A stretch of DNA of 64,000 nt from Streptomyces pluripotens (lineage in GTDB: Bacteria; Actinomycetota; Actinomycetes; Streptomycetales; Streptomycetaceae): NCBI RefSeq assembly GCF_000802245.2, contig NZ_CP021080.1:5332001-5396000 (forward strand), read 5' to 3'. The translations under genes and the position numbers were made by a program. Every line of letters begins with the position of its first letter. Position 1 is the stretch's first letter. The notes under the pieces were generated by a model that worked only from the letters and a program-made list of their open reading frames with translations, was not told where the DNA came from and did not search any database. Of this stretch, positions 3,295 to 14,734 are shown piece after piece.

Positions 3295-3401
3295 CGTGCT
3301 GCAGTGCTGCACAGGTGCACACAGGTTCCGGCGGGGCCGGAGAAGTCGGGTACCCGCCCGGGGGCGCTGGCCGGCGAGGTCGGGGCGCGGTCGAAAGGAA
3401 A

Positions 3402-3432
3402 TCCCCCGTGCCCCACGAAGGGGCACGGGGGA
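3402..3432 (-). terminator. Terminator downstream of the first conservon
   Basis: A 13-bp perfect inverted repeat (TCCCCCGTGCCCC with its complement) and a 5-nt loop lie 74 bp beyond the stop of the minus-strand cvnD. It would also stop leftover rightward transcription from accE. Confidence 0.8.
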
Positions 3433-3506
3433 CCGCACGGGAAGTCACGGGCCACCCCCGCGGGCGGTGTACGACCGCAGGGGCAGCCCGATGGCCGCTG
3501 GCCCGG

Positions 3507-4088
3507 TCAGCGGAGACGCGCCATCAGGGCGTGCTCCACCAGCGTGATCAGCGCACTCTTGGCATCGGCGCGGTGCCGGGCGTCGGTCGTGATGATCGGG
3601 GTATCGGGGCCGATCTGGAGGGCCTCGCGTACTTCGTCGGGGTTGTAGGGCTGCTGGCCGTCGAAGCCGTTGAGGGCGATGACGAAGGGCAGACCGCTGT
3701 TCTCGAAGTAGTCGACCGCGGGGAAGCAGTCGGCGAGACGTCGGGTGTCCACGAGCACCACGGCGCCGATGGCGCCGCGCACCAGGTCGTCCCACATGAA
3801 CCAGAAGCGGTCCTGTCCCGGGGTACCGAAGAGGTACAGGATCAGGTCCTGGTCCAGGGTGATGCGGCCGAAGTCCATGGCCACCGTGGTGGTGGTCTTG
3901 TCCCCGGTGTGGGTCAGGTCGTCGATGCCGGCCGAAGCGGACGTCATGACGGCCTCTGTGCGCAGCGGGTTGATCTCCGAGACGGCGCCGACGAACGTGG
4001 TTTTGCCCACGCCGAAGCCGCCCGCCACCACGATCTTCGCGGAGGTGGTGGAGCGGGAAGGACCGCCGCTAGAGCTTGCGAAGTCCAC
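3507..4088 (-). CDS. cvnD: Conservon GTPase CvnD (first copy)
   Basis: A 193-residue Ras-like small GTPase of the bacterial conservon (MglA-related) class. Visible motifs are the P-loop GGFGVGKTT near residue 20, the switch-II motif FGTPGQDRF, and ALNGFDG where eukaryotic GTPases have NKxD. It is thought to act as the output GTPase of a membrane complex with CvnA, B and C. It starts at a GTG that overlaps the end of cvnC by 20 bp, so the two are translationally coupled. Over 536 bp it is almost identical at DNA level to the second cvnD (8861-9436). The two proteins differ only at the extreme ends and at one internal Thr/Ala. By remembered synteny this conservon is cvn2 of S. coelicolor. Confidence 0.95.
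   Translation of the reverse strand: MDFASSSGGPSRSTTSAKIVVAGGFGVGKTTFVGAVSEINPLRTEAVMTSASAGIDDLTHTGDKTTTTVAMDFGRITLDQDLILYLFGTPGQDRFWFMWDDLVRGAIGAVVLVDTRRLADCFPAVDYFENSGLPFVIALNGFDGQQPYNPDEVREALQIGPDTPIITTDARHRADAKSALITLVEHALMARLR
3514..4049. repeat. 536-bp near-identical repeat, copy 1 (within cvnD)
   Basis: Aligned by eye with 8868-9403 at a constant offset of 5354 bp. I find two adjacent mismatches (TA versus CG, in the Asp-Thr/Asp-Ala codons near 3601-3603) in 536 bp. Identity stops sharply at both ends, inside the coding region. Confidence 0.9.
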
Positions 4089-4638
4089 TGAGCACCCTTT
4101 CGAGCAGTGTCACGTCTGGCTGGCCACCGGCGTTCTCGTCGCCGCCGGGCTGATGGATGGCGACCAGGCCCGCCTCCGCCAAGTCGGCGACGAGGATCCT
4201 GGCCACGCCGAGGGGGATCGTCAGCAGGGCCGAAATCTCGGCCACCGATTTGATTTCCCGGCACAGATTGCAGATCCGCTGATGCTCGGGCAGCTGGCCC
4301 TGCATCTGGTGCGGAGCAGCGGTGGTGTGCACCAGCGCCTCGATGGCGAGCTGGTAGCGCGGGCGGGTCCGGCCGCCGGTCATGGCGTACGGACGCACCA
4401 AGGGGTTGTTCGACGCCGTCGCCGGCGCCGGTTCGGGCCGGCGCTGTGGTTGCACCGGCTGGATGCGCGGGGCCGAGGGCTGAGCGTACGGCGAAGGGCC
4501 GGGGCCCTGCGGGGCGTACGGCTGCCGGTGGCTGGGGGCGGAGGGGAAGTTGTACCGGTTCGCCGAGCCGTCGTCCTGGCCCTGGGCAGGGCCGTAGGAC
4601 CAGTTGCCCGAGGTCGAACCTCCTGGGGGTGTTGCCAC
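4069..4638 (-). CDS. cvnC: Conservon DUF742 protein CvnC (first copy)
   Basis: A 189-residue soluble protein. Its roughly 75-residue N-terminal extension is rich in Gln, Pro, Gly and Tyr. The conserved DUF742 winged-helix-like domain follows: LVRPYAMTGGRTRPRYQLAIEALV, then HQRICNLCREIKSVAEISALL and VARILVADLAEAGLV. The final segment, including DVTLLERVLSGLRKL, is typical. The GTG start has a GGAGGAG site 5 bp upstream. DUF742 proteins pair with the Roadblock protein and GTPase in every conservon. The extension is absent from the second CvnC (132 residues), which starts just before the conserved part. Confidence 0.93.
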   Translation of the reverse strand: MATPPGGSTSGNWSYGPAQGQDDGSANRYNFPSAPSHRQPYAPQGPGPSPYAQPSAPRIQPVQPQRRPEPAPATASNNPLVRPYAMTGGRTRPRYQLAIEALVHTTAAPHQMQGQLPEHQRICNLCREIKSVAEISALLTIPLGVARILVADLAEAGLVAIHQPGGDENAGGQPDVTLLERVLSGLRKL

Positions 4639-4732
4639 TTTCTCCTCCTCCGACTGTGCCGGGCACCCATCCCTGTGGAGCCGCGTCCCGAAACCTTACG
4701 GCCCCGGGACACGAATCCGCACGGTCCGCTTG

Positions 4733-5146
4733 CTAGTTGAGAAGGCTTCCCTGGAGCTCCGCACGGAGATCAGGGGTCAGGACCGAGCCCGCGCGGTCCA
4801 CCAGAAGGGCCATCTCGTACCCGATGAGGCCGATGTCCGCCTCCGGGTGGGCCAGGACAGCGAGCGACGAACCGTCGGAGATGGACATGATGAAGAGGAA
4901 TCCCCGCTCCATCTCCACGACCGTCTGGTTCACGCTGCCGCCCTCGAAGATGCGCGAGGCACCGGCGGTCAGCGAAGTCAGACCGGAGGCGACGGCCGCG
5001 AGCTGGTCGGCGCGGTCGCGGGGGAAGCCTTCGGACATCGCCAGAAGGAGTCCGTCGGCGGAGACCACCACCGTGTGGGACACCCCCGGGGTGTTGTCCA
5101 CGAAGTTGGTGATCAACCAGTTCAGGTTCTGTGCCGCCTGGCTCAT
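4733..5146 (-). CDS. cvnB: Conservon Roadblock/LC7 protein CvnB (first copy)
   Basis: A 137-residue Roadblock/LC7-domain protein beginning MSQAAQNLNWLITNFVDN. Proteins of this fold regulate small GTPases, acting as activators or scaffolds for MglA-like partners. It lies between the ATPase gene and cvnC; the ATPase stop codon is only 10 bp upstream. I chose the ATG ending at 5146 because it aligns exactly with the paralogue at 10339; the longer frame upstream has no support. Its DNA differs from the paralogue at many synonymous sites, unlike cvnD. Confidence 0.94.
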   Translation of the reverse strand: MSQAAQNLNWLITNFVDNTPGVSHTVVVSADGLLLAMSEGFPRDRADQLAAVASGLTSLTAGASRIFEGGSVNQTVVEMERGFLFIMSISDGSSLAVLAHPEADIGLIGYEMALLVDRAGSVLTPDLRAELQGSLLN

Positions 5147-5156
5147 CGGGCTCACA

Positions 5157-8100
5157 CTAACGCTCCTGGTTGTAGGTGCTATCAGGACCGAAGCCCTGGC
5201 CGTTCGTTTCACTGCCTGCGCTGCGTCCGCGCTGGACGCCCCGACGCAGGTTGCTCAGCCTGCCCCGGACGTCCTCCGGGGCGCGGGAGACCTGTGGGCC
5301 TCCCTGGGGAGTGGTTTCGGCGGAACCCTCGACCAGATTGGCCTTGGGCACCCGCCGTGGCAGGCCGGAGGCGGTGACCCCGCCTGCCTTGGGCTTCCGC
5401 AGCTGGGAGGCCTGCTGCCACCGCTCGTCGTTCGCCGAACGCCAGCCGCTGTCGCCGCTGTCGTCCAGCGCGTTGTCCGGTCCGGGAGCCGGCGCCTCCC
5501 GCTGCGCGCGCGCCGTTCCGTTCGCCCCACCCGCGCCGTTGGAACCACTCGCGGCGGATCCGCGACGGGGCAGCCCGGCGTCGGTCAGCTCGTGGGCGGC
5601 GGGAGAGTCCGGTTCCGGACTGTCGAAGCCTACGCGGTTCCGGTCACTTGCGTCAGCGGCCTGGGCCGATTCCGTTTCCGGAGCGTACTGGCCCGGATAG
5701 CCGTTCTGGTAGGCGTTCTGCTGCGGCCAGTCGTCCTGGTAGGACTGGGCGTCGTAGGAGCCGAAGCCGTCGGAGGCCTGGGTGTGGGCAGGAGCCTGCT
5801 CCCCCTGGCCGTGCTCCGAGTACGCCGGATCCGGGTAACCGCCTTCCGCGGGGAAGCCGTTGTTCTGCAGCAGGCCGCTGTCCGTGGCGTAGAACCGCTC
5901 GTCGTACGACTGCTCGCTCTGCTGCTCGTACGACTGCTCGTGCGACTCCTGGTACGCGGAGTGCTGTTGCTCCTCGTACGCGGGCTGCTGTTCCTGGTAC
6001 GGCTGCTCGGAGTAGCCCGTGCCGCTTCCGTCGTAGCCCTGTTGCGTCTCGAACTCGTCCGGGTAACCGGCCGGAGCCTCGGTACCGTCCTGCTGCGGTT
6101 GTTCGGACTGCTCGCCCTGGACCTGGGACTCGAGAGTGGCGCGACGTTCCTCGCGCATCAGGGAACGGCCGACGGGGTCCAGGTCGCGGATGTCGTCGGG
6201 GACCTCCACGTACTGGCTGTCGTCGAAGCCGAATTCGGCGGCGGTGCGCATCGGATGCGGATGGGCGAAGTCCTCACCCTGGAACTGCTGCTCCGGGATG
6301 ATCTGCGAGACGGTGAACTCCTCGCCGTCCAGTGGTGTCTCGCCGCCACCGCCGTGCGTGATCGCGTCCGGCAGCATCACCAGGGAGGTGGTGCCGGCCT
6401 GCTCACCCGAGGGACGCAACTGGACCCGGACGCCGTGCCGGTCGGACAGTCGGCCGACCACGAACAGGCCCATGCGCTGCGAGATCGCGGCGTCCACGGT
6501 CGGCGGGTTGGCCAGTTTGTGGTTGATGTCCGCGAAGTCCTCGGCCGTCAGACCGATGCCCTTGTCATGGATCTCGATCATGATGCGGCCGTCGGGGAGC
6601 CGGGTCGCGGTCACCCGGACCTTGGTCTGCGGGGAGGAGAACGTGGTGGCGTTCTCCAGCAGCTCGGCCAGCAGGTGCACGAGGTCGGTGACCGCACGGC
6701 CGTGGATCTCGGCCTCCGGCACGCCGGACAGCTCGATGCGCTCGTACTGCTCCACCTCGGAGGAAGCGGCTCGCAGGACGTCGACGAGGGGGACCGGCTG
6801 GTCCCAGCGGCGTCCGGGCTCCTCGCCGGCGAGGACCAGGAGGTTCTCACCGTTGCGGCGCATACGGGTGGCCAGGTGGTCCAGCCTGAAGAGGTTCTCC
6901 AACTGGTCCGGGTCGGCCTCGTTGTTCTCCAGGTCGGTGATCAGGGTCAGCTGTCCCTCGATCAGCGACTGGTTGCGGCGGGAGAGGTTGGTGAAGATCG
7001 CGTTGATGTTGCCCCGCAGCAGGGCCTGCTCGGAGGCGAGCCGGACCGCCTCGCGGTGAACCTGGTCGAAGGCGCGGGCGACCTCGCCGATCTCGTCCTT
7101 GGTGTGGATCGGGATCGGGGCGACCCGGGTGTCGACCCGGCCGGGGTCGGTGCGCGAGAGCTGGTCGACCAGCATCGGCAGACGCTGCTCGGCGATGCCG
7201 AAGGCGGCGTTGCGTAGCTGGCGCATCGAGCGGCTCATCTGGCGAGCCACGGCACCGGCCAGGATGAACGCGAACAGCAGGGCGATCACGACTACTGCAC
7301 CGGTGGTGATCGCAGAAGTCTTGGCGTCGTCGGCGATGGCCGAGGCCTCGTTCACCGCCCTGTCGGCGAGATCCGACTCGATCTGGCGGTAAGCCTTGTA
7401 CTTGAGCGTGTTGACCGCCCACCAGTTCTGGGCGGTGATGCCCTGGGCGGTGAGCGCGTCACGGGTGGTGGCGCTGGTGTCCTGCAGCATGGCCAGAGCC
7501 GCGACCATCTTGGACGGGTCGGACGGCGGGGCGACGTAGTTCGGGGTGTTCGCCGCGGCCTCCTCGGCCAACTTGGCGGCGTCCTGCTTGATCTTCTTCT
7601 GCGCGTCGGTGAGGTTCTGCGCGTCGGCTTCGGTGCCACCGCCGAGGTACTCCTCCAGGGCGATGCGCTCCAAGTAGGCGTACGAGGACAGCGACACCCG
7701 CTGGGTCGCCAGGTTGGGAGCGTCCGGGCCGGGGTTGACCAGCAGATGTGTGCCGATCGACCGTTCCAACGACAGCGCGGCCTTGGTCAGCGAGATGGCG
7801 TAGACGGTACGGCCGTAGGAGGTGATGTTGCCGGTGCCCAGACCGAGCTCGTTGGCGAACTCCATCAGGGGGTGGGCGATCTCTACGTACCCCTCTTCGG
7901 TCTCCACACCGTGGACCTTGGAGGTGTAGGCGTTCTGCCGCAGCTGTGCCAGCTTGGGCTCGGCCTCGCGGAACAGCTTCAGTCGCCGCTTCAGGCCGGC
8001 CTTGTCCGGCATCTTCTGCGCGGCCTGGTCGAACGCGTCGGCGGCCTGGTCTGTGGCTTTGCGGGCGTTGTCGACGACTGCCCTGCTCTTGCTGTCCTTC

Positions 8101-8456
8101 TTGTTCAGCAGCAGCGGCGCCGCAGTGACGTCACGCTCGTTCTCCACGGCGTCGGCGTAGGTGAGGGCGGCGCGCACCAGGCGGGCGGTGTTCTCGGCGT
8201 CGCGGGCCTGCTGCCAGGTGTCGATCGAGTTCTTGACCTGGAAGCCGCCCATGACGAGGCCGACTACCACGGGTATGAGGAGGATCGCGTTCAGCCGGGT
8301 GGGCACCCGCCAGTTGCGAGGGGAGAAACGGCCGCCGCTCGACGCGGGAGTGACCTCCGGCTCCACGTCGGAGACAGGGGCAGGCGCCGCAGCGCGCGGC
8401 GGCGGGGTGAAGTTGCCCCGTGCCGACGGCTCGGGACCGTTCTTGCTTCGCCTCAC
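5157..8456 (-). CDS. cvnA: Conservon sensor kinase-like ATPase CvnA (first copy)
   Basis: A membrane protein of about 1099 residues. A cytoplasmic Pro/Ala-rich N-terminus leads to a first membrane segment near residues 55-73. A roughly 300-residue extracytoplasmic NIT-like sensor domain follows, then a second membrane segment near 380-403 and a HAMP-like linker. The HATPase_c domain (about 535-685) has the N-box ELLENATTFSSP and DKGIGL. The C-terminal 400 residues are disordered and rich in Gln, Tyr, Glu and Ser. No canonical phospho-acceptor H-box is visible, as in other CvnA proteins. I prefer the GTG ending at 8456, preceded by GAGAGG with the same spacing as in the second cvnA. The frame could extend to 8531. 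It heads the operon A-B-C-D. Confidence 0.92.
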   Translation of the reverse strand: MRRSKNGPEPSARGNFTPPPRAAAPAPVSDVEPEVTPASSGGRFSPRNWRVPTRLNAILLIPVVVGLVMGGFQVKNSIDTWQQARDAENTARLVRAALTYADAVENERDVTAAPLLLNKKDSKSRAVVDNARKATDQAADAFDQAAQKMPDKAGLKRRLKLFREAEPKLAQLRQNAYTSKVHGVETEEGYVEIAHPLMEFANELGLGTGNITSYGRTVYAISLTKAALSLERSIGTHLLVNPGPDAPNLATQRVSLSSYAYLERIALEEYLGGGTEADAQNLTDAQKKIKQDAAKLAEEAAANTPNYVAPPSDPSKMVAALAMLQDTSATTRDALTAQGITAQNWWAVNTLKYKAYRQIESDLADRAVNEASAIADDAKTSAITTGAVVVIALLFAFILAGAVARQMSRSMRQLRNAAFGIAEQRLPMLVDQLSRTDPGRVDTRVAPIPIHTKDEIGEVARAFDQVHREAVRLASEQALLRGNINAIFTNLSRRNQSLIEGQLTLITDLENNEADPDQLENLFRLDHLATRMRRNGENLLVLAGEEPGRRWDQPVPLVDVLRAASSEVEQYERIELSGVPEAEIHGRAVTDLVHLLAELLENATTFSSPQTKVRVTATRLPDGRIMIEIHDKGIGLTAEDFADINHKLANPPTVDAAISQRMGLFVVGRLSDRHGVRVQLRPSGEQAGTTSLVMLPDAITHGGGGETPLDGEEFTVSQIIPEQQFQGEDFAHPHPMRTAAEFGFDDSQYVEVPDDIRDLDPVGRSLMREERRATLESQVQGEQSEQPQQDGTEAPAGYPDEFETQQGYDGSGTGYSEQPYQEQQPAYEEQQHSAYQESHEQSYEQQSEQSYDERFYATDSGLLQNNGFPAEGGYPDPAYSEHGQGEQAPAHTQASDGFGSYDAQSYQDDWPQQNAYQNGYPGQYAPETESAQAADASDRNRVGFDSPEPDSPAAHELTDAGLPRRGSAASGSNGAGGANGTARAQREAPAPGPDNALDDSGDSGWRSANDERWQQASQLRKPKAGGVTASGLPRRVPKANLVEGSAETTPQGGPQVSRAPEDVRGRLSNLRRGVQRGRSAGSETNGQGFGPDSTYNQER

Positions 8457-8860
8457 TCGACCAACAACCTCTCGGCGGTCGGCACCTACGTCGTGCCGCA
8501 GTCCTTCAGAGCCCGGTTCGTTATCGACCACTCAGTACGCACTCGGTACGTGGCGCGCTCAGTACATCCTTGACCACTGGGCAGTTCAGGCATTCCAGCA
8601 CGTGGACCAGTGCACTTCCAAACAGTGGAAACCTCTGAACAGCAGCGATGTAGGTCCCAGATAAAACGGTCATAAAGAGCGAGCCACGGCAAATGGCGGG
8701 GTGTTTGTGAGCACAGCGGCACCGCCCGACCGCGTCGCGTGGTGACGCCGGGCGATTCCTCTGCCGAACTGTTATGAACACCGGAGCCGACCGTGTCAAA
8801 GGCCACAGCCGGCTCCGTTCCATTTACGACAACTGCCCTACGGCTCGTCGTCCTTGTGTG
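8457..8860. other. 404-bp gap between the two conservons
   Basis: It holds the promoter and leader of the first conservon, transcribed leftward, and the terminator of the second. The part near 8510-8700 is less GC-rich and contains repeated CAGTAC words (near 8531 and 8566). I see no gene. Confidence 0.5.
8782..8817 (-). terminator. Putative terminator of the second conservon
   Basis: An 8-bp perfect inverted repeat (CGGAGCCG with CGGCTCCG) with a 20-nt loop lies 44 bp past the cvnD stop at 8861. It is weaker than the other terminators in the window. Confidence 0.5.
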
Positions 8861-9436
8861 CTACTTCAGACGCGCCATCAGGGCGTGCTCCACCAGCGTG
8901 ATCAGCGCACTCTTGGCATCGGCGCGGTGCCGGGCGTCGGTCGTGATGATCGGGGCGTCGGGGCCGATCTGGAGGGCCTCGCGTACTTCGTCGGGGTTGT
9001 AGGGCTGCTGGCCGTCGAAGCCGTTGAGGGCGATGACGAAGGGCAGACCGCTGTTCTCGAAGTAGTCGACCGCGGGGAAGCAGTCGGCGAGACGTCGGGT
9101 GTCCACGAGCACCACGGCGCCGATGGCGCCGCGCACCAGGTCGTCCCACATGAACCAGAAGCGGTCCTGTCCCGGGGTACCGAAGAGGTACAGGATCAGG
9201 TCCTGGTCCAGGGTGATGCGGCCGAAGTCCATGGCCACCGTGGTGGTGGTCTTGTCCCCGGTGTGGGTCAGGTCGTCGATGCCGGCCGAAGCGGACGTCA
9301 TGACGGCCTCTGTGCGCAGCGGGTTGATCTCCGAGACGGCGCCGACGAACGTGGTTTTGCCCACGCCGAAGCCGCCCGCCACCACGATCTTCGCGGAGGT
9401 GGTAGCCCGGCCCGCGTCAGAGCTTGCGAAGTCCAC
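8861..9436 (-). CDS. cvnD: Conservon GTPase CvnD (second copy)
   Basis: A 191-residue small GTPase with the same motifs as the first copy (P-loop GGFGVGKTT, FGTPGQDRF, ALNGFDG). I start at the GTG ending at 9436, which overlaps cvnC by 20 bp exactly as in the first conservon; a frame five codons longer exists. The final residue is Lys instead of Arg, and the N-terminal linker (DAGRAT) differs from the other copy (GGPSRST). Between these ends the two genes are nearly identical at DNA level. Because both GTPases should look the same to partners over the whole GTPase core, specificity of each conservon must come from the other subunits or the termini. Confidence 0.95.
   Translation of the reverse strand: MDFASSDAGRATTSAKIVVAGGFGVGKTTFVGAVSEINPLRTEAVMTSASAGIDDLTHTGDKTTTTVAMDFGRITLDQDLILYLFGTPGQDRFWFMWDDLVRGAIGAVVLVDTRRLADCFPAVDYFENSGLPFVIALNGFDGQQPYNPDEVREALQIGPDAPIITTDARHRADAKSALITLVEHALMARLK
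8868..9403. repeat. 536-bp near-identical repeat, copy 2 (within cvnD)
   Basis: Counterpart of 3514-4049, with two mismatches by eye. Neighbouring cvnC, cvnB and cvnA sequences do not share this level of identity. Confidence 0.9.
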
Positions 9437-9815
9437 TGAGCACCCTTTCAAGCAGCGTCACGTCCGGAGCGCCGCCGTTGTTCTCGTCGCCCCCCGGCTG
9501 GTGGACGGCAACCAGGCCGGCCTCGGCGAGGTCGGCGACCAGGATCCGGGCCACACCGAGTGGCATGGCTAGCAGTGCGGAAACCTCCGCGACCGACTTG
9601 ACCTCACGGCACAGGTGACAGATGCGCTGGTGCTCCGGGAGCAGCCCCATGAGCGCTGCCGGGTCGGCCGTGGTGCTGATCAGCGCCTCTATCGCGAGCT
9701 GGTAGCGCGGCCGGGTCCGGCCACCGGTCATCGCGTACGGCCTCACCAGAGGCTGGTCGCCCTCATCCCCGTACGACTCGGCGTACGGATCAGGGTGGGC
9801 GGTGGGCGGTGTCAT
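9417..9815 (-). CDS. cvnC: Conservon DUF742 protein CvnC (second copy)
   Basis: A 132-residue DUF742 protein containing LVRPYAMTGGRTRPRYQLAIEALI, RICHLCREVKSVAEVSALL and the C-terminal DVTLLERVLSGLRKL. Its ATG has GGAGG 4 bp upstream. Unlike the first copy it has only about 20 residues before the conserved domain. It overlaps cvnD by 20 bp and follows cvnB after a 110-bp spacer. As in other conservons it probably bridges the Roadblock protein or GTPase to downstream targets; this is inferred from the family, not shown here. Confidence 0.93.
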   Translation of the reverse strand: MTPPTAHPDPYAESYGDEGDQPLVRPYAMTGGRTRPRYQLAIEALISTTADPAALMGLLPEHQRICHLCREVKSVAEVSALLAMPLGVARILVADLAEAGLVAVHQPGGDENNGGAPDVTLLERVLSGLRKL

Positions 9816-9925: not shown

Positions 9926-10339
9926 TCAGTGGAGCAGACTGCCCTGGAGTTCGGCGCGCAGGTCCGGGGTGAGTACCGCACCCGCACGGTCGACGAGCAA
10001 CGCCATCTCGTAGCCGACGAGGCCGATGTCTGCCTCTGGGTGGGCCAGGACCGCGAGCGACGACCCGTCCGAGACCGACATCAGGAAGAGGAACCCGCGC
10101 TCCATCTCGACGACCGTCTGCGCCACGTTGCCGCCCTCGAAGATCCGGGACGCCCCGGCCGTGAGCGAGGTCAGCCCGGAGGCGACCGCCGCCAGCTGGT
10201 CGGCACGGTCCCGTGGGAAGCCTTCGGACATCGCCAGCAGAAGGCCGTCGGCGGAGACCACCACGGTGTGGGACACCCCGGGGGTGTTGTCCACAAAGTT
10301 GGTGATCAACCAGTTCAGGTTCTGTGCCGCCTGGCTCAT
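9926..10339 (-). CDS. cvnB: Conservon Roadblock/LC7 protein CvnB (second copy)
   Basis: A 137-residue Roadblock/LC7 protein, very similar in sequence to the first CvnB (for example TPGVSHTVVVSADGLLLAM in both). I chose the ATG ending at 10339 because it aligns with the paralogue; the open frame could begin three codons earlier at a TTG. The cvnA stop codon is 9 bp upstream, so the two are likely coupled. Many synonymous differences from the first copy show that this pair has diverged normally. Confidence 0.94.
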   Translation of the reverse strand: MSQAAQNLNWLITNFVDNTPGVSHTVVVSADGLLLAMSEGFPRDRADQLAAVASGLTSLTAGASRIFEGGNVAQTVVEMERGFLFLMSVSDGSSLAVLAHPEADIGLVGYEMALLVDRAGAVLTPDLRAELQGSLLH

Positions 10340-10348
10340 CGAACTCAA

Positions 10349-13300
10349 CTAACGCTCCTGCTGGTGAGTGGGGCTCGGGAAGCTGCCGGTCTGGCCGTTG
10401 CCGGCCTGACGGCCCTGAGCGATGCCCCGACGGAGATTGGTCAGCCGTCCACGTACGTCGTCAGGCGCACGCGAGACCTGCGGACCGGCTTGGTGCTGTT
10501 GCTGCTGTGCCGTGCCCGGGACGAGGTTCGCCCGGGGCACGCGGCGCGGCAGACCCGAGGTGGTGACGCCACCCGCGGAGGGCTGCCGGACGCGTTCTGC
10601 CTGCCGGACGAGATCGTCGTTCGGCGAGGTACGCCAGGAACCGGTGTTCGAGGCGGAGGGCTGTGGAGCCGGGGCAGGCGCCTGCGGCTGCTGCGCCGCG
10701 GGCGCGCTCTCCTGCTGCGCACCGCCGTGGAACCAGTTGGTTTCCAGGGTGTCGTACAGCGGGGTACGGCCGTCGCTCGGGCCGCGCCCTTCACCGGGCC
10801 GACGTGCGACGCTCCGGCCGCCGGGTTCCTGGCCGGCCGTGCGCTGCTGCGGGGCCGGCTGCCGCGGGGCACCGAAGTCGTTGCGGCCGGCCGGCTGCGG
10901 GCGCTCGAACTGGCCCGTCTGCGCGGGTTCCTGGCGGCCGGGCAAGGCGTGCCGGCCGGTGGAGCTGCCGTCGAAGCCGCCATTGAAGGAGTCGCGGTAC
11001 GCCTGCTGAGCCTCGAACTGCCCCGTCTGCTGGGGGTCGTTCTGCTGCTCGGGTACCGACTGGCCGAAGACGTCGGAGCGGACGAACGGACCGGAGCCCT
11101 GGCGGTCGTCGGGCCGGGGCCCGAACCGGTCATCCTGGTGGGCGGCGTCGGGCTGTGCGAACTGACCCGTCTGCTGCCCGGCATCCGGCTGTGCGAACTG
11201 CCCGGTGTGCTGGGAGCCGTCGGGCCGCGCGAACTCACCCGACTGGGAGTTGTCCGGGTGGGCGAACTGGCCCGTGTTCTGCGAGTCGTTGAAGCCATTG
11301 AAGTCGGCATGCGGGAATTCGCCCGTGGCGGCCGGAACGTCGTCGATCCGGGGTATGTCCGCGGTCGAACCCGGACCCTGCCGGTCGTCCACGCGCGGCA
11401 TGGGCGCGGTGTGCGCCGGATCCTGCTCTTCGTGGCCGCGCGGAGCGTCCTGCGCAGCCCGTGGCAGCGGCGCCTGGCTGCCGCCCCAGTCCGCGGTGCG
11501 CGACTGCGCCTCACCGCCGGGCAGTTCGGCCCGCGCGCCGCCGCGCGGCGGGAGCTGGGGCTGGCGGCCCAGCTCCGCGGGGCCACCGGTCCGCTGCGAC
11601 CCACGGCCGCCGAAGAAGTCCTGCTGTCCGCCCGGATGCGTGGTGGGTAGACCTTGCTGGGCATTCGGCGCGGGGGAGCCGAAGCCACCCGCACCCGTAC
11701 CGGCCGGCGGCCGGTTCTGCTGGGAGGACCCGGGACCGCCCTGGGGACCACGCGCTCCGCCCGGCGCACCCGGACGGCCGCCCTGGCCCGCGCCAGGCAG
11801 CGCCGCCCGGGGCCCCTGTCCGGCGCCGACCTGACCGCGCGGGCCGCTACCGGCACCGAGCGGACCGCCTCCCTGGCCGTTTCCGGTGCTCGCGCGCCGG
11901 GCTGCGGCGGCACCGGCCGCAGCTTGTGCGGCAGCGGGGCCACCTGTGGGGGCGGGTGCGCCCGGCTTGCCCTGACCGGGCTTCTTGCCGCCCTGGGCGA
12001 CGTCCACGGGCAGCATGACCAGCGCGGTCGTACCACCGGAGTCGGACGGGCGCAGCTGGATGCGGATGCCGTGTCGCTGGGAGAGCCGGCCGACCACGAA
12101 GAGGCCCATGCGGCGGGAGACGGAGACGTCCACGGTGGGCGGCGAGGCCAGCCGCTCGTTGATCGCGGCCAGGTCCTCCGGCGACAGTCCGATACCGGTG
12201 TCGTGGATCTCGATCAGCACGCGGCCGTCGGGCAGCGCGTGACCAGTGACCTTGACCTTGGTCTGCGGCGAGGAGAACGAGGTGGCGTTCTCCAGTAGCT
12301 CGGCGAGCAGGTGCACGAGGTCGTTGACGACTCGGCCAGCGACCTCGGTGGTGGGTACCGAGGCCAGTTCGATGCGCTCGTACTGCTCCACCTCGGACGC
12401 GGCGGCGCGGAGCACGTCGACCAGCGGGACCGGGCGGGTCCAGCGGCGGCCGGGCTCTTCACCCGCGAGGACGAGGAGGTTCTCGCCGTTACGACGCATA
12501 CGCGTGGCGAGGTGGTCCAGCTTGAACAGCGAGGACAGCTGGTCCGGGTCGGCCTCGCGGGACTCCAACTCGGAGATCAGCGACAGCTGGCGCTGGATCA
12601 GACCCTGGGAGCGGCGGGAGAGGTTGGTGAACATCGCGTTGACGTTGCCCCGCAGCAGCGCCTGCTCGGCGGCGAGGCGGACCGCCTCGCGGTGCACGTC
12701 GTCGAAGGCCGCGGCCACCTGACCGATCTCGTCCCGGGAGTGCACACCGACCGACTCGACGGAGGTGTCGACGTCCTGGGGGTCGGACTCGGACAGCTGC
12801 TTGACCAGCTCGGGCAGGCGGTCCTGGGCGACCTTGGTCGCCGTCTCCTGCAGCCGGCGCAGCGAGCGGATCATGGATCGGGCCACGACGAACGCGCCGA
12901 CCAGCGAGATACCGAGGACGATGAGGATCAGCGCACCGGAGATGATCGCGTCCTGCTCGGAGGAGGCCTTCAGCTCACGGGCCTTCTGCTCCATGTCCTC
13001 CAGCAGCGAGTGCTCGATGTTCTTCATCTGCTGGATCTTGGTCACGCTGGTGTCCAGCCAGTCGCGGTACGAACGCGCCGGCAGCGACTCGATGCCGTCC
13101 GGCGATGCGAAGGCACGCTTGGCGTAGGTGTTGGCGGCCTTGATCGTGGGGTTGCCCTCCTCGATCGGCTTGAGGAGCGCCTCCGCGTTCTGGTCGGCGT
13201 AGATCTTCCGGAAGATCGCGAGTTCGGAGGCCTCGCTCTCGTACGCCGCCTCGCCGTAGAGCTGGTCGTTCTTTGAGAGGTGCCCCTTGGAGGAGGTGGT

Positions 13301-14167
13301 CGCCGGCAGCGCGGCGGCGATCATGGCGCGCTGCACGGAGGCGTACTCCTTGGCGGTGGAGAAGGCCGCCAGGGCGCGGGTGCGCGAGATCATCTCCGGG
13401 TTGCTGGACGCCTCGGCCATGTCCTGGGACAGGCCGATGAGCTGAGTGATGAGCCGGTGGTAGGACTCGACCGTCTGGGTCGCGTTGTTCTTCGACTGGT
13501 ACGCGTTCTTGCGGATCTTGGCCAGGTCGTCCAGCTGGTGGACGATGCCGACGAGGGCGTCACGGACACCCTGCAGGTTGCCGTTCTTGCTGGCCGTGTC
13601 GATCTGTTCGGAGGCGGTGAGGAAGTTGTCGCGGGCGTGGTCGGTCTTCTCCTGGTAGCCCTTGACCGTGTAGTCGGTCGACTTCAGTCCGCCGTGAGCC
13701 AGCGGGCCCGCGGACTGGTCGCGCTCCTCCTGGAGGGCGGCGGCCAGCTCGGTGGCCTGCTTGGTCATCTGGGTCAGCAGCTTCATGTTGTCGAGCTGCT
13801 GGATGTCGTCCATGGACTCGTTGATGCGTAGCGCGCCCAGCGTGGTGGCCGCGACCACGGGCAGCGCGAGCAGCGACACCAGGCGCGTGGAGATGCGCCA
13901 GTTGCGCAGGGCAAGGCGCGAACCGGTACCGGTCGGGCCCTTGCCGGGCTCCACTGTCGGTGTGGGGGTGTCGGGCTTCACGGTTCCCGGCGGGACCGGC
14001 GAGTTCGGCGGGGCGGACGCACCGGTGCGTCCGCCCCGCTCACCGCCGTCTCCGGACGGGGCCGGGCCCTGGCTCTGGGCGTGCTGGGGCGAGGAACCGC
14101 GGTCGGTTCCGCCGTGCGACTCCGGCTCTGCCGAAGCGCTGCCATCCCTCTTGAAACGTCCCTGCAC
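10349..14167 (-). CDS. cvnA: Conservon sensor kinase-like ATPase CvnA (second copy)
   Basis: A membrane protein of about 1272 residues built like the first CvnA: membrane segment near 89-110, NIT-like extracytoplasmic domain, second membrane segment near 404-428, HAMP-like linker, HATPase_c (about 562-712) with ELLENATSFSSP and DTGIGL, then a disordered tail of more than 500 residues. The tail is rich in Gly, Gln and Pro and holds tandem units like TGQFAQPDAGQQ. I start at the GTG ending at 14167 (VQGRFKRDG), preceded by AGAGG 11 bp upstream as in the other copy; the open frame could extend to 14620, but that part has antisense-like composition. By remembered synteny this is the cvn1 conservon of S. 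coelicolor. Confidence 0.92.
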   Translation of the reverse strand: MQGRFKRDGSASAEPESHGGTDRGSSPQHAQSQGPAPSGDGGERGGRTGASAPPNSPVPPGTVKPDTPTPTVEPGKGPTGTGSRLALRNWRISTRLVSLLALPVVAATTLGALRINESMDDIQQLDNMKLLTQMTKQATELAAALQEERDQSAGPLAHGGLKSTDYTVKGYQEKTDHARDNFLTASEQIDTASKNGNLQGVRDALVGIVHQLDDLAKIRKNAYQSKNNATQTVESYHRLITQLIGLSQDMAEASSNPEMISRTRALAAFSTAKEYASVQRAMIAAALPATTSSKGHLSKNDQLYGEAAYESEASELAIFRKIYADQNAEALLKPIEEGNPTIKAANTYAKRAFASPDGIESLPARSYRDWLDTSVTKIQQMKNIEHSLLEDMEQKARELKASSEQDAIISGALILIVLGISLVGAFVVARSMIRSLRRLQETATKVAQDRLPELVKQLSESDPQDVDTSVESVGVHSRDEIGQVAAAFDDVHREAVRLAAEQALLRGNVNAMFTNLSRRSQGLIQRQLSLISELESREADPDQLSSLFKLDHLATRMRRNGENLLVLAGEEPGRRWTRPVPLVDVLRAAASEVEQYERIELASVPTTEVAGRVVNDLVHLLAELLENATSFSSPQTKVKVTGHALPDGRVLIEIHDTGIGLSPEDLAAINERLASPPTVDVSVSRRMGLFVVGRLSQRHGIRIQLRPSDSGGTTALVMLPVDVAQGGKKPGQGKPGAPAPTGGPAAAQAAAGAAAARRASTGNGQGGGPLGAGSGPRGQVGAGQGPRAALPGAGQGGRPGAPGGARGPQGGPGSSQQNRPPAGTGAGGFGSPAPNAQQGLPTTHPGGQQDFFGGRGSQRTGGPAELGRQPQLPPRGGARAELPGGEAQSRTADWGGSQAPLPRAAQDAPRGHEEQDPAHTAPMPRVDDRQGPGSTADIPRIDDVPAATGEFPHADFNGFNDSQNTGQFAHPDNSQSGEFARPDGSQHTGQFAQPDAGQQTGQFAQPDAAHQDDRFGPRPDDRQGSGPFVRSDVFGQSVPEQQNDPQQTGQFEAQQAYRDSFNGGFDGSSTGRHALPGRQEPAQTGQFERPQPAGRNDFGAPRQPAPQQRTAGQEPGGRSVARRPGEGRGPSDGRTPLYDTLETNWFHGGAQQESAPAAQQPQAPAPAPQPSASNTGSWRTSPNDDLVRQAERVRQPSAGGVTTSGLPRRVPRANLVPGTAQQQQHQAGPQVSRAPDDVRGRLTNLRRGIAQGRQAGNGQTGSFPSPTHQQER
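11140..11300. repeat. Degenerate tandem repeat in the CvnA tail
   Basis: The minus-strand reading encodes four to five imperfect 11-13 residue units with the core GQFA(Q/H)PD or GEFARPD separated by polar residues. The repeat lies in the disordered C-terminal tail of the second CvnA and is absent from the first, whose tail is Tyr/Gln-rich instead. Confidence 0.7.
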
Positions 14168-14734
14168 TAGCGTCGCAACCTCTGGACCAGGCGCCCCTCC
14201 GCGTGAACGAAGGGACACGGTGTTGGCGTCGTGGAGAGCGCCCTGAATACGCCCCCCGATGGTCTTGAGTACCGGCGCTGGATCCCCCTGTCTCGCCGCC
14301 ACTCGGCGCTGTAGCGCCCCCTGTGCGCCGGCTCGATCCTGCGGCGGTCCGTGGAATTCCAGCACAGTGCTGGATCTCCAACAAGAGCAGTGAACCGAGC
14401 TGTGACCTCCGTGACGCAATGTGCGTGCCACATCACCAGACGTAGAAGGCGATCTGGTGCATAACGGGTGGATCAGCCCCAGTCGCCCCTCGGTGGCACG
14501 TGTCCCAGTCGCCATGATCAGGAGCGGAATGATGGCTTCAGGGGGCCAATGTCCTTTTCGTCGAGGTGTGTTGGCGGCCGGAATTGACCGGTTTGCCTGC
14601 GGGATCGTGAGGAAACTCACACGCCGATCGTGAACGGTTGGCGCTTGCGGTGGGGAATCGGATGTTTAGCCTGACGCTTTACAGCAGTGGCGACTCTGCC
14701 AACCCGCTCGACTAGAGGGCACAGGACGACAACG
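14168..14734. other. 567-bp regulatory gap between divergent genes
   Basis: It lies upstream of both the second conservon (leftward) and the small protein gene (rightward). It contains a short hairpin GTGAG-GAAA-CTCAC near 14606-14619, flanked by two GATCGTGA words. Composition becomes less GC-rich around 14640-14690. No convincing gene is seen; open frames here look like shadows. Confidence 0.5.

Follow-up and report, generated by a model that had tools for sequence, protein, structure and literature searches.

Evidence for recurrent homogenisation of the GTPase gene cvnD between tandem conservons in Streptomyces, and of cvnB in related genera

The window analysed here, a 64,000-nucleotide stretch of Streptomyces pluripotens DNA (contig NZ_CP021080.1, positions 5,332,001 to 5,396,000), comes from a genome assembled as one contig of 7,346,075 bases and contains two complete conservons in tandem on the minus strand, both with their genes in the same-strand order cvnA-cvnB-cvnC-cvnD. 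In both units Pfam matches to NIT/HATPase_c, Robl_LC7, DUF742 and ATP_bind_1 were obtained for cvnA, cvnB, cvnC and cvnD, respectively, and each unit holds the full conservon gene set. Our subject is the pair of cvnD genes, which encode small GTPases (the CvnD/MglA naming follows the available text of PMC4316618 and PMC13343842) and which share a nearly identical tract of DNA. The genes and the parts of this tract are located as follows.

3507..4088, minus strand: cvnD of the downstream conservon, a 193-amino-acid small Ras/MglA-like GTPase (PF03029, ATP_bind_1, E 3e-35)
3514..4049, minus strand: homogenised tract, downstream copy, with 2 differences in 536 base pairs (bp) against 8868-9403
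3602..3603, minus strand: sole differences inside the tract, in codons 167-168 (GAT ACC downstream, GAC GCC upstream), one synonymous and one Thr/Ala
4050..4070, minus strand: variable N-terminal tail of cvnD, downstream copy, where a 6-bp length difference separates the copies and the tract stops
4069..4638, minus strand: cvnC of the downstream conservon (DUF742, PF05331, E 5e-42)
4733..5155, minus strand: cvnB of the downstream conservon, roadblock/LC7, MglB-like (PF03259, E 2e-26; open reading frame 4733-5212)
5157..8531, minus strand: cvnA of the downstream conservon, NIT sensor plus HATPase (PF08376, PF02518), start approximate
8861..9436, minus strand: cvnD of the upstream conservon, 191 amino acids (PF03029, E 8e-35; open reading frame 8861-9451)
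8868..9403, minus strand: homogenised tract, upstream copy, in ungapped comparison with 3514-4049
9417..9815, minus strand: cvnC of the upstream conservon (PF05331, E 3e-39)
9926..10348, minus strand: cvnB of the upstream conservon (PF03259, E 2e-27)
10349..14620, minus strand: cvnA of the upstream conservon, given as the longest open reading frame, with the true start somewhere inside (PF08376, PF02518, PF00672)

The initial annotation of this stretch had reported only two adjacent differences between 3514-4049 and 8868-9403, and this count is exact: the two tracts align without gaps at an offset of 5354 and differ at sites 3602 and 3603, with differences resuming directly outside, at 3513 and below and at 4050 and above. 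It had also stated that the cvnA and cvnB pairs differ at many synonymous positions, and had proposed a gene-by-gene alignment of the two units. That alignment bears the statement out, with synonymous differences per site between upstream and downstream copies of 0.042 for the whole of cvnD against 0.48 for cvnC, 0.43 for cvnB and 0.39 for the kinase region of cvnA. Similarly, the cvnC and cvnB stretches of the two units are 81-83% alike, and the longest identical run in aligned codons is 446 bp in cvnD, 46 bp in cvnB, 30 bp in cvnC and 29 bp in the cvnA kinase region. Differing cvnD codons lie ahead of the start codon (alignment columns 1 and 3), in the N-terminal tail (columns 14-18) and at columns 167-168 and 197-198. 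The annotated abrupt ends of the block do lie inside both coding regions, but at the edges of the gene, namely at codon column 18, where the offset between the copies shifts by 6 bp (from 5354 to 5348), and at the last two codons. Since the limits of the tract are the edges of the coding region, the homogenised part is essentially the whole conserved GTPase domain.

We compared this pair with tandem conservons from other genomes, in which loci are designated by L-numbers and genera other than Streptomyces by g-numbers. Eighty named loci were found via the upstream CvnA, 60 were taken from the matches listed among 295 genomes of the genus and 40 from the matches listed among 121 genomes of the family, giving 181 with the window, of which 17 lacked a full unit and 5 held only one. 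The 60 genus loci, coming from the best matches listed, lean towards cvnD genes like that of the window; the 80 named loci, having been picked by the upstream cvnA, are free of this bias, and among them draft assemblies lose near-identical pairs. Genes were located by tblastn and aligned as codons, and genes holding N were dropped; gaps in the flanks were looked for in L173 only. Loci that did not carry two cvnD genes were set aside, as were three near-duplicates and the two loci whose cvnD is split (L018 and L118). This resulted in 149 non-redundant pairs of tandem units, of which 121 count as Streptomyces (the window and a record under the title Kitasatospora aureofaciens included) and 28 belong to nine other genera. 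In the split cases cvnD fell into two tblastn hits, in both units of L018 and in the downstream unit of L118; the L018 copies are split at similar places, pointing to a shared frameshift or a sequencing error. Separately, 11 of the 12 draft contigs that end before cvnC stop at most 200 bp past the upstream cvnA kinase match (for example L013, L032, L037 and L047).

Had the two copies evolved independently after duplicating, an upstream copy should be as far from the downstream copy of its own genome as from that of any other genome, and cvnA (kinase region) and cvnC served as internal controls for this comparison. For Streptomyces the median third-position distances within and across genomes were 0.322 and 0.330 for cvnA, 0.350 and 0.371 for cvnB, 0.378 and 0.378 for cvnC, and 0.167 and 0.253 for cvnD. 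Indeed, the within-genome distance was the smaller one for cvnD in 108 of the 121 Streptomyces genomes (p 4e-20; median ratio 0.65), as compared to 57/121 for cvnC (ratio 1.00) and 78/118 for cvnA (ratio 0.98). For cvnB the shift was real but small (75/120, sign test p 4e-3; ratio 0.94). Within the unbiased set of named loci, 52 of which were usable, the corresponding counts were 45/52 for cvnD, 26/52 for cvnC and 32/52 for both cvnA and cvnB. The nearest gene was the paralogue from the same genome for 84 of 242 Streptomyces cvnD genes and 16 of 240 cvnB genes, and for none of 242 cvnC or 236 cvnA genes. Moreover, identical runs of at least 100 bp joined the two cvnD copies in 76/121 genomes, versus 13/396 random cross-genome pairs; such runs occurred in 8/120 genomes for cvnB, 1/121 for cvnC and 0/118 for cvnA.

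The phylogenies gave the same picture. The initial annotation had named, as an outcome contrary to its proposal, trees in which each cvnD groups with its own conservon across species, and this grouping was not seen: FastTree trees built from Streptomyces DNA show 35 changes of the upstream/downstream label for cvnD (121 genomes) and 9 for cvnB (120), as compared to one each for cvnA (118) and cvnC (121). The cvnD tree therefore conflicts with those of its flanking genes, as is expected for gene conversion. In trees of all genera, with branches below 0.95 support collapsed, the changes numbered 43 for cvnD (149 genomes), 18 for cvnB (148), 4 for cvnC (149) and 2 for cvnA (144). Third-position distances and trees together strongly support gene conversion, or ongoing concerted evolution, of cvnD over a single duplication of the whole conservon, as the initial annotation had preferred. 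Its description of the conversion as recent holds for the window, but the process recurs across the genus and beyond it, and in other genera cvnB has been homogenised as well.

The pairs differ in age, being near-identical in L177, L104, L141, L061, L079 and the window, with others drifted to the cross-genome level. Judged from these sequences, the latest cvnD event in the window is recent and one of a long series. Of nine identity profiles, five have sharp cvnD edges (the window, L177, L141, L173 and L174), three have patchier ones (L167, L162 and L119), and in the ninth, L160, homogenisation extends over cvnC. The Ala at cvnD column 168 is commoner among relatives in upstream than in downstream copies. 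Taken whole, the window tract gives a mixed picture that points to neither copy as the donor: in L034, L020, L014, L016 and L090 (the last by one site) it is the upstream copy that lies nearer, in L092, L091 and L096 the downstream copy, and in L104, L017, L011 and L089 the two are equally distant. For the cvnD core at 8868-9403 the closest sequence is the L034 upstream cvnD, with 15 third-position differences over 168 codons, and L034 is not among the six genomes nearest the window by cvnA-C, which may reflect an exchange of cvnD between species.

Outside Streptomyces the homogenisation extends to a second gene. In the cvnA tree (144 genomes) all nine other genera sort into the upstream and downstream clades of Streptomyces, with a support of 100 for the split and a single exception, a row of genus g14 that fits a hybrid unit in L171 described below. 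Because these clades span genera, one duplication must predate the split of the ten sampled genera of Streptomycetaceae. In the other genera the within-genome distance was smaller in 28/28 genomes for both cvnB and cvnD, in 23/28 for cvnC and in 22/26 for cvnA, with median within/cross ratios of 0.18, 0.49, 0.83 and 0.92, respectively, so that cvnB is homogenised even more than cvnD. Both genes are homogenised in genera g14 (6 genomes) and g3 (5 genomes), and mainly cvnB in g7 (11 genomes; cvnD ratio 0.86). In L173, L174, L177 and L141, of which the latter two belong to the window's own genus, a differing cvnC and spacer lie between the identical stretches in cvnB and cvnD; identity along these profiles is 82-100% in cvnB, mostly 60-90% in cvnC and 100% in cvnD until the last interval. 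The cvnB of L173 rests on an assembly with a gap, and an extra cvnB in that locus (3392-4998), lying beside a run of N, was taken as an assembly artefact, probably caused by the repeat. Across 120 Streptomyces genomes the within-genome distances of cvnB and cvnD correlate (Spearman 0.50), and their converted states co-occur (6/7 versus 45/113, p 0.02). We considered this co-conversion as evidence that the two proteins act as a pair and gave it little weight, since there is a correlation between cvnC and cvnD distances as well (0.24) and the genomes are related to one another.

Two loci carry the footprint of crossing-over rather than conversion. L172 consists of three units. From ahead of cvnA until within cvnB, the middle one is 99-100% identical to the third unit, which is of downstream type; from the end of cvnB onwards, over cvnC, cvnD and the spacer after it, it is 98-100% identical to the first unit, which is of upstream type. 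This single switch inside cvnB makes the middle unit a hybrid of the kind that unequal crossing-over in identical cvnB genes would leave. The first full unit of L171 looks like the same kind of hybrid; there a contig end cuts the first unit, so a unit from another genome, L170, was used as reference (89-98% identity after the switch). Both hybrids join a downstream-type sensor gene to an upstream-type cvnC. In two further loci of genus g14, L189 and L190, the fetched stretch holds a single conservon with upstream-type cvnA and cvnC and one cvnD, and these are possible deletion products of unequal crossing-over.

The exchanged genes are also those whose proteins look interchangeable, as judged from how few alignment columns are copy-specific. 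In first-pass sets of 92-96 genomes, still including L018 and L118, columns tending to separate the copies (overlap below 0.5) numbered 4/198 for CvnD, 8/140 for CvnB, 25/121 for CvnC and 114/339 for CvnA, and near-fixed ones (overlap at most 0.1) numbered 0, 3, 18 and 98, respectively. The four in CvnD comprise one before the start codon, two in the N-terminal tail outside the tract (columns 14 and 18, the most copy-specific of the gene) and one Val/Ile site, and the core held no fixed copy-specific residue among these genomes. In 14 of the 149 genomes the CvnD copies show zero amino-acid differences over codons 21-190. We found no support for the idea that selection guards the copy-specific residues of CvnB, as the converted Streptomyces cvnB genes (L177, L178, L141 and L119) have overwritten most such sites, although the first copy-specific column still differs in three of these four genomes and the last in L141 and L119. 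The initial annotation had held that the two conservons use the same GTPase core and that cross-talk between them is likely; this fits the CvnD core found here, but it is not implied by DNA identity alone, because homology-guided recombination would give the same pattern.

On the basis of these comparisons we consider it very probable that recurrent homologous recombination homogenises cvnD, and in other genera cvnB, while cvnA and cvnC diverge. On this reading one duplication produced the two tandem conservons, and the sequences show that cvnD, and in other genera cvnB likewise, has since been copied repeatedly between units, leaving cvnA and, a few exceptions aside, cvnC to diverge. The direct repeats would have recombined with each other, in most cases by a conversion-like route and now and then by crossing-over, through homologous recombination enzymes that are presumed. 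If the whole conservon had duplicated recently and cvnA-C had then diverged fast, the units would likewise be tandem and syntenic, but we give this reading almost no credence: cvnA and cvnC each split only once into upstream and downstream clades in Streptomyces, as does cvnA over all ten genera bar the one hybrid row, and within-genome divergence of cvnA-C in Streptomyces amounts to 94-100% of the cross-genome value. Codon selection acting on cvnD synonymous sites is just as hard to credit. Third positions of cvnD do show moderate conservation among species (Streptomyces ortholog median 0.237, from the first-pass set), but this still means about 24% differing third positions between orthologues, against one synonymous site between the window tracts, and selection cannot make copies alike solely within a genome. 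It is also very unlikely that an assembler pasted a single cvnD into both places. The gap-associated cvnB duplicate of L173 is probably a case of such an error, but the window genome is one contig in which the flanks and N-tails of the two copies differ, and close pairs of various ages occur in many genomes, several in contigs of millions of bases (L141, L142, L174 and L177). Short-read drafts break at cvnD instead, as expected of a near-identical repeat: a contig end falls within the downstream flank of 25 of the 80 named loci, and in 8 of these 25 the contig stops where cvnD starts, 41-145 bp beyond the cvnC match.

Several observations nevertheless weigh against recurrent, gene-selective homogenisation. 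The cvnA control is not flat in Streptomyces (78/118, sign test p 3e-4), though its shift is small, and the controls also shift a little in the other genera; in 13 of the 121 Streptomyces the within-genome cvnD distance is not the smaller one; and weak tree signal inflates label counts on short conserved genes, the collapsing of weak branches having lowered cvnD from 52 changes to 43 and cvnB from 32 (34 in another uncollapsed count) to 18. Furthermore, cvnC is itself exchangeable, being near-identical in L160 (third-position distance 0.071), unlike in nearly all other genomes, and between the first two units of L172, and where Streptomyces cvnB is converted most copy-specific CvnB residues are overwritten, so that those differences are not essential. 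A further step, in which the units would share a GTPase-roadblock switch, with CvnB and CvnD of either unit interchangeable and CvnA and CvnC supplying each unit's own input and adaptor/output, is proposed as plausible, though we rate it as somewhat less likely than not. Somewhat more doubtful is the extension that tandem conservons form one two-sensor device, in which selection would keep CvnB-CvnD common family-wide as CvnA and CvnC specialise, and crossing-over in identical cvnB/cvnD would shuffle new sensor/adaptor combinations, as in L171 and L172. We regard as having not quite an even chance the view that homology alone decides, such that the genes of the most constrained proteins, CvnD and CvnB, keep the longest identical stretches, recombine most and are thereby held identical in a feedback loop, with no functional sharing needed. 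According to the available text of PMC8510531, conservation across the 13 conservons of S. coelicolor is highest for CvnD and next highest for CvnB; the median longest identical run between copies in Streptomyces is 50 bp for cvnD versus 33-36 bp for cvnA, cvnB and cvnC; and tracts stop where homology stops or where N-tail length differs. On the other hand, cvnB is unconverted (third-position distance at least 0.2) in 113/120 Streptomyces though the window CvnB pair differs at only 7 residues, and cvnC seldom accompanies its neighbour cvnD, neither point being decisive. The homology-only and shared-switch readings may both hold.

The window pair probably corresponds to cvn1 and cvn2 of Streptomyces coelicolor. 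A carboxyltransferase-type gene adjoins the downstream unit in the window, with a homologue in the fetched flank of 110 of the 181 loci, a count limited by the shortness of many flanks, and in S. coelicolor the neighbour of cvn2 is accB. For the gene products, the downstream cvnB has a solved relative (3leq, 'cvnB5', E 4e-26), and a PDB sequence search with cvnD gave no match at E 0.001. In the accessible part of PMC9739842, CvnA2 is SCO5540 and CvnA1 is SCO5544, four locus numbers apart, so that cvn1 and cvn2, like the window pair, are two neighbouring cvnA-D operons. Streptomyces genomes hold several conservons (S. coelicolor has 13), which raises the question of how GTPases and sensors are matched. 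The available text of PMC8510531 reports GTP hydrolysis by CvnD of Cvn9 and its binding to CvnB and CvnC, and there the authors of the cvn8 study speculate about conservon cross-talk. Recurrent exchange of CvnD, and elsewhere of CvnB, amounts to a natural experiment in which swapped parts are tolerated as interchangeable, making the unexchanged CvnA and CvnC candidates for specificity. By extension, the two cvnD copies may not be told apart in short-read assemblies or in expression data, and loss of one cvnD may be masked by the other.

In the portion of PMC4316618 that is available, CvnD and CvnB form an MglA-/MglB-like pair, group 2 MglA being CvnD; concerted evolution of the pair in MglA/MglB systems is not described in that portion, and the term gene conversion occurs 0 times there as in PMC13343842. 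We found no report of homogenised cvnD or cvnB, the cvnD1/cvnD2 pair of S. coelicolor included, in the conservon and Streptomyces gene-conversion literature, as far as the accessible texts go, mostly outside subscription journals. Gene conversion between bacterial duplicates is already well known. EF-Tu, for example, is a GTPase like CvnD, and its tuf gene copies lie far apart and encode the same protein. Conversion between the tuf genes of Salmonella is described in the available text of PMC5485169. The cvnD case differs from tuf in that the converted gene belongs to tandem operons that diverge in their remaining genes; some genera also convert a second gene, cvnB, but not the cvnC between the two. 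Ribosomal RNA (rRNA) operons offer another parallel, in that copies within a genome are more alike than orthologues and the whole repeat is homogenised. Their concerted evolution in bacteria is covered in the accessible part of PMC6002687. The cvnD genes resemble rRNA operons in being more alike within a genome than between orthologues, and differ from them in that only selected genes of the conservon repeat are homogenised.

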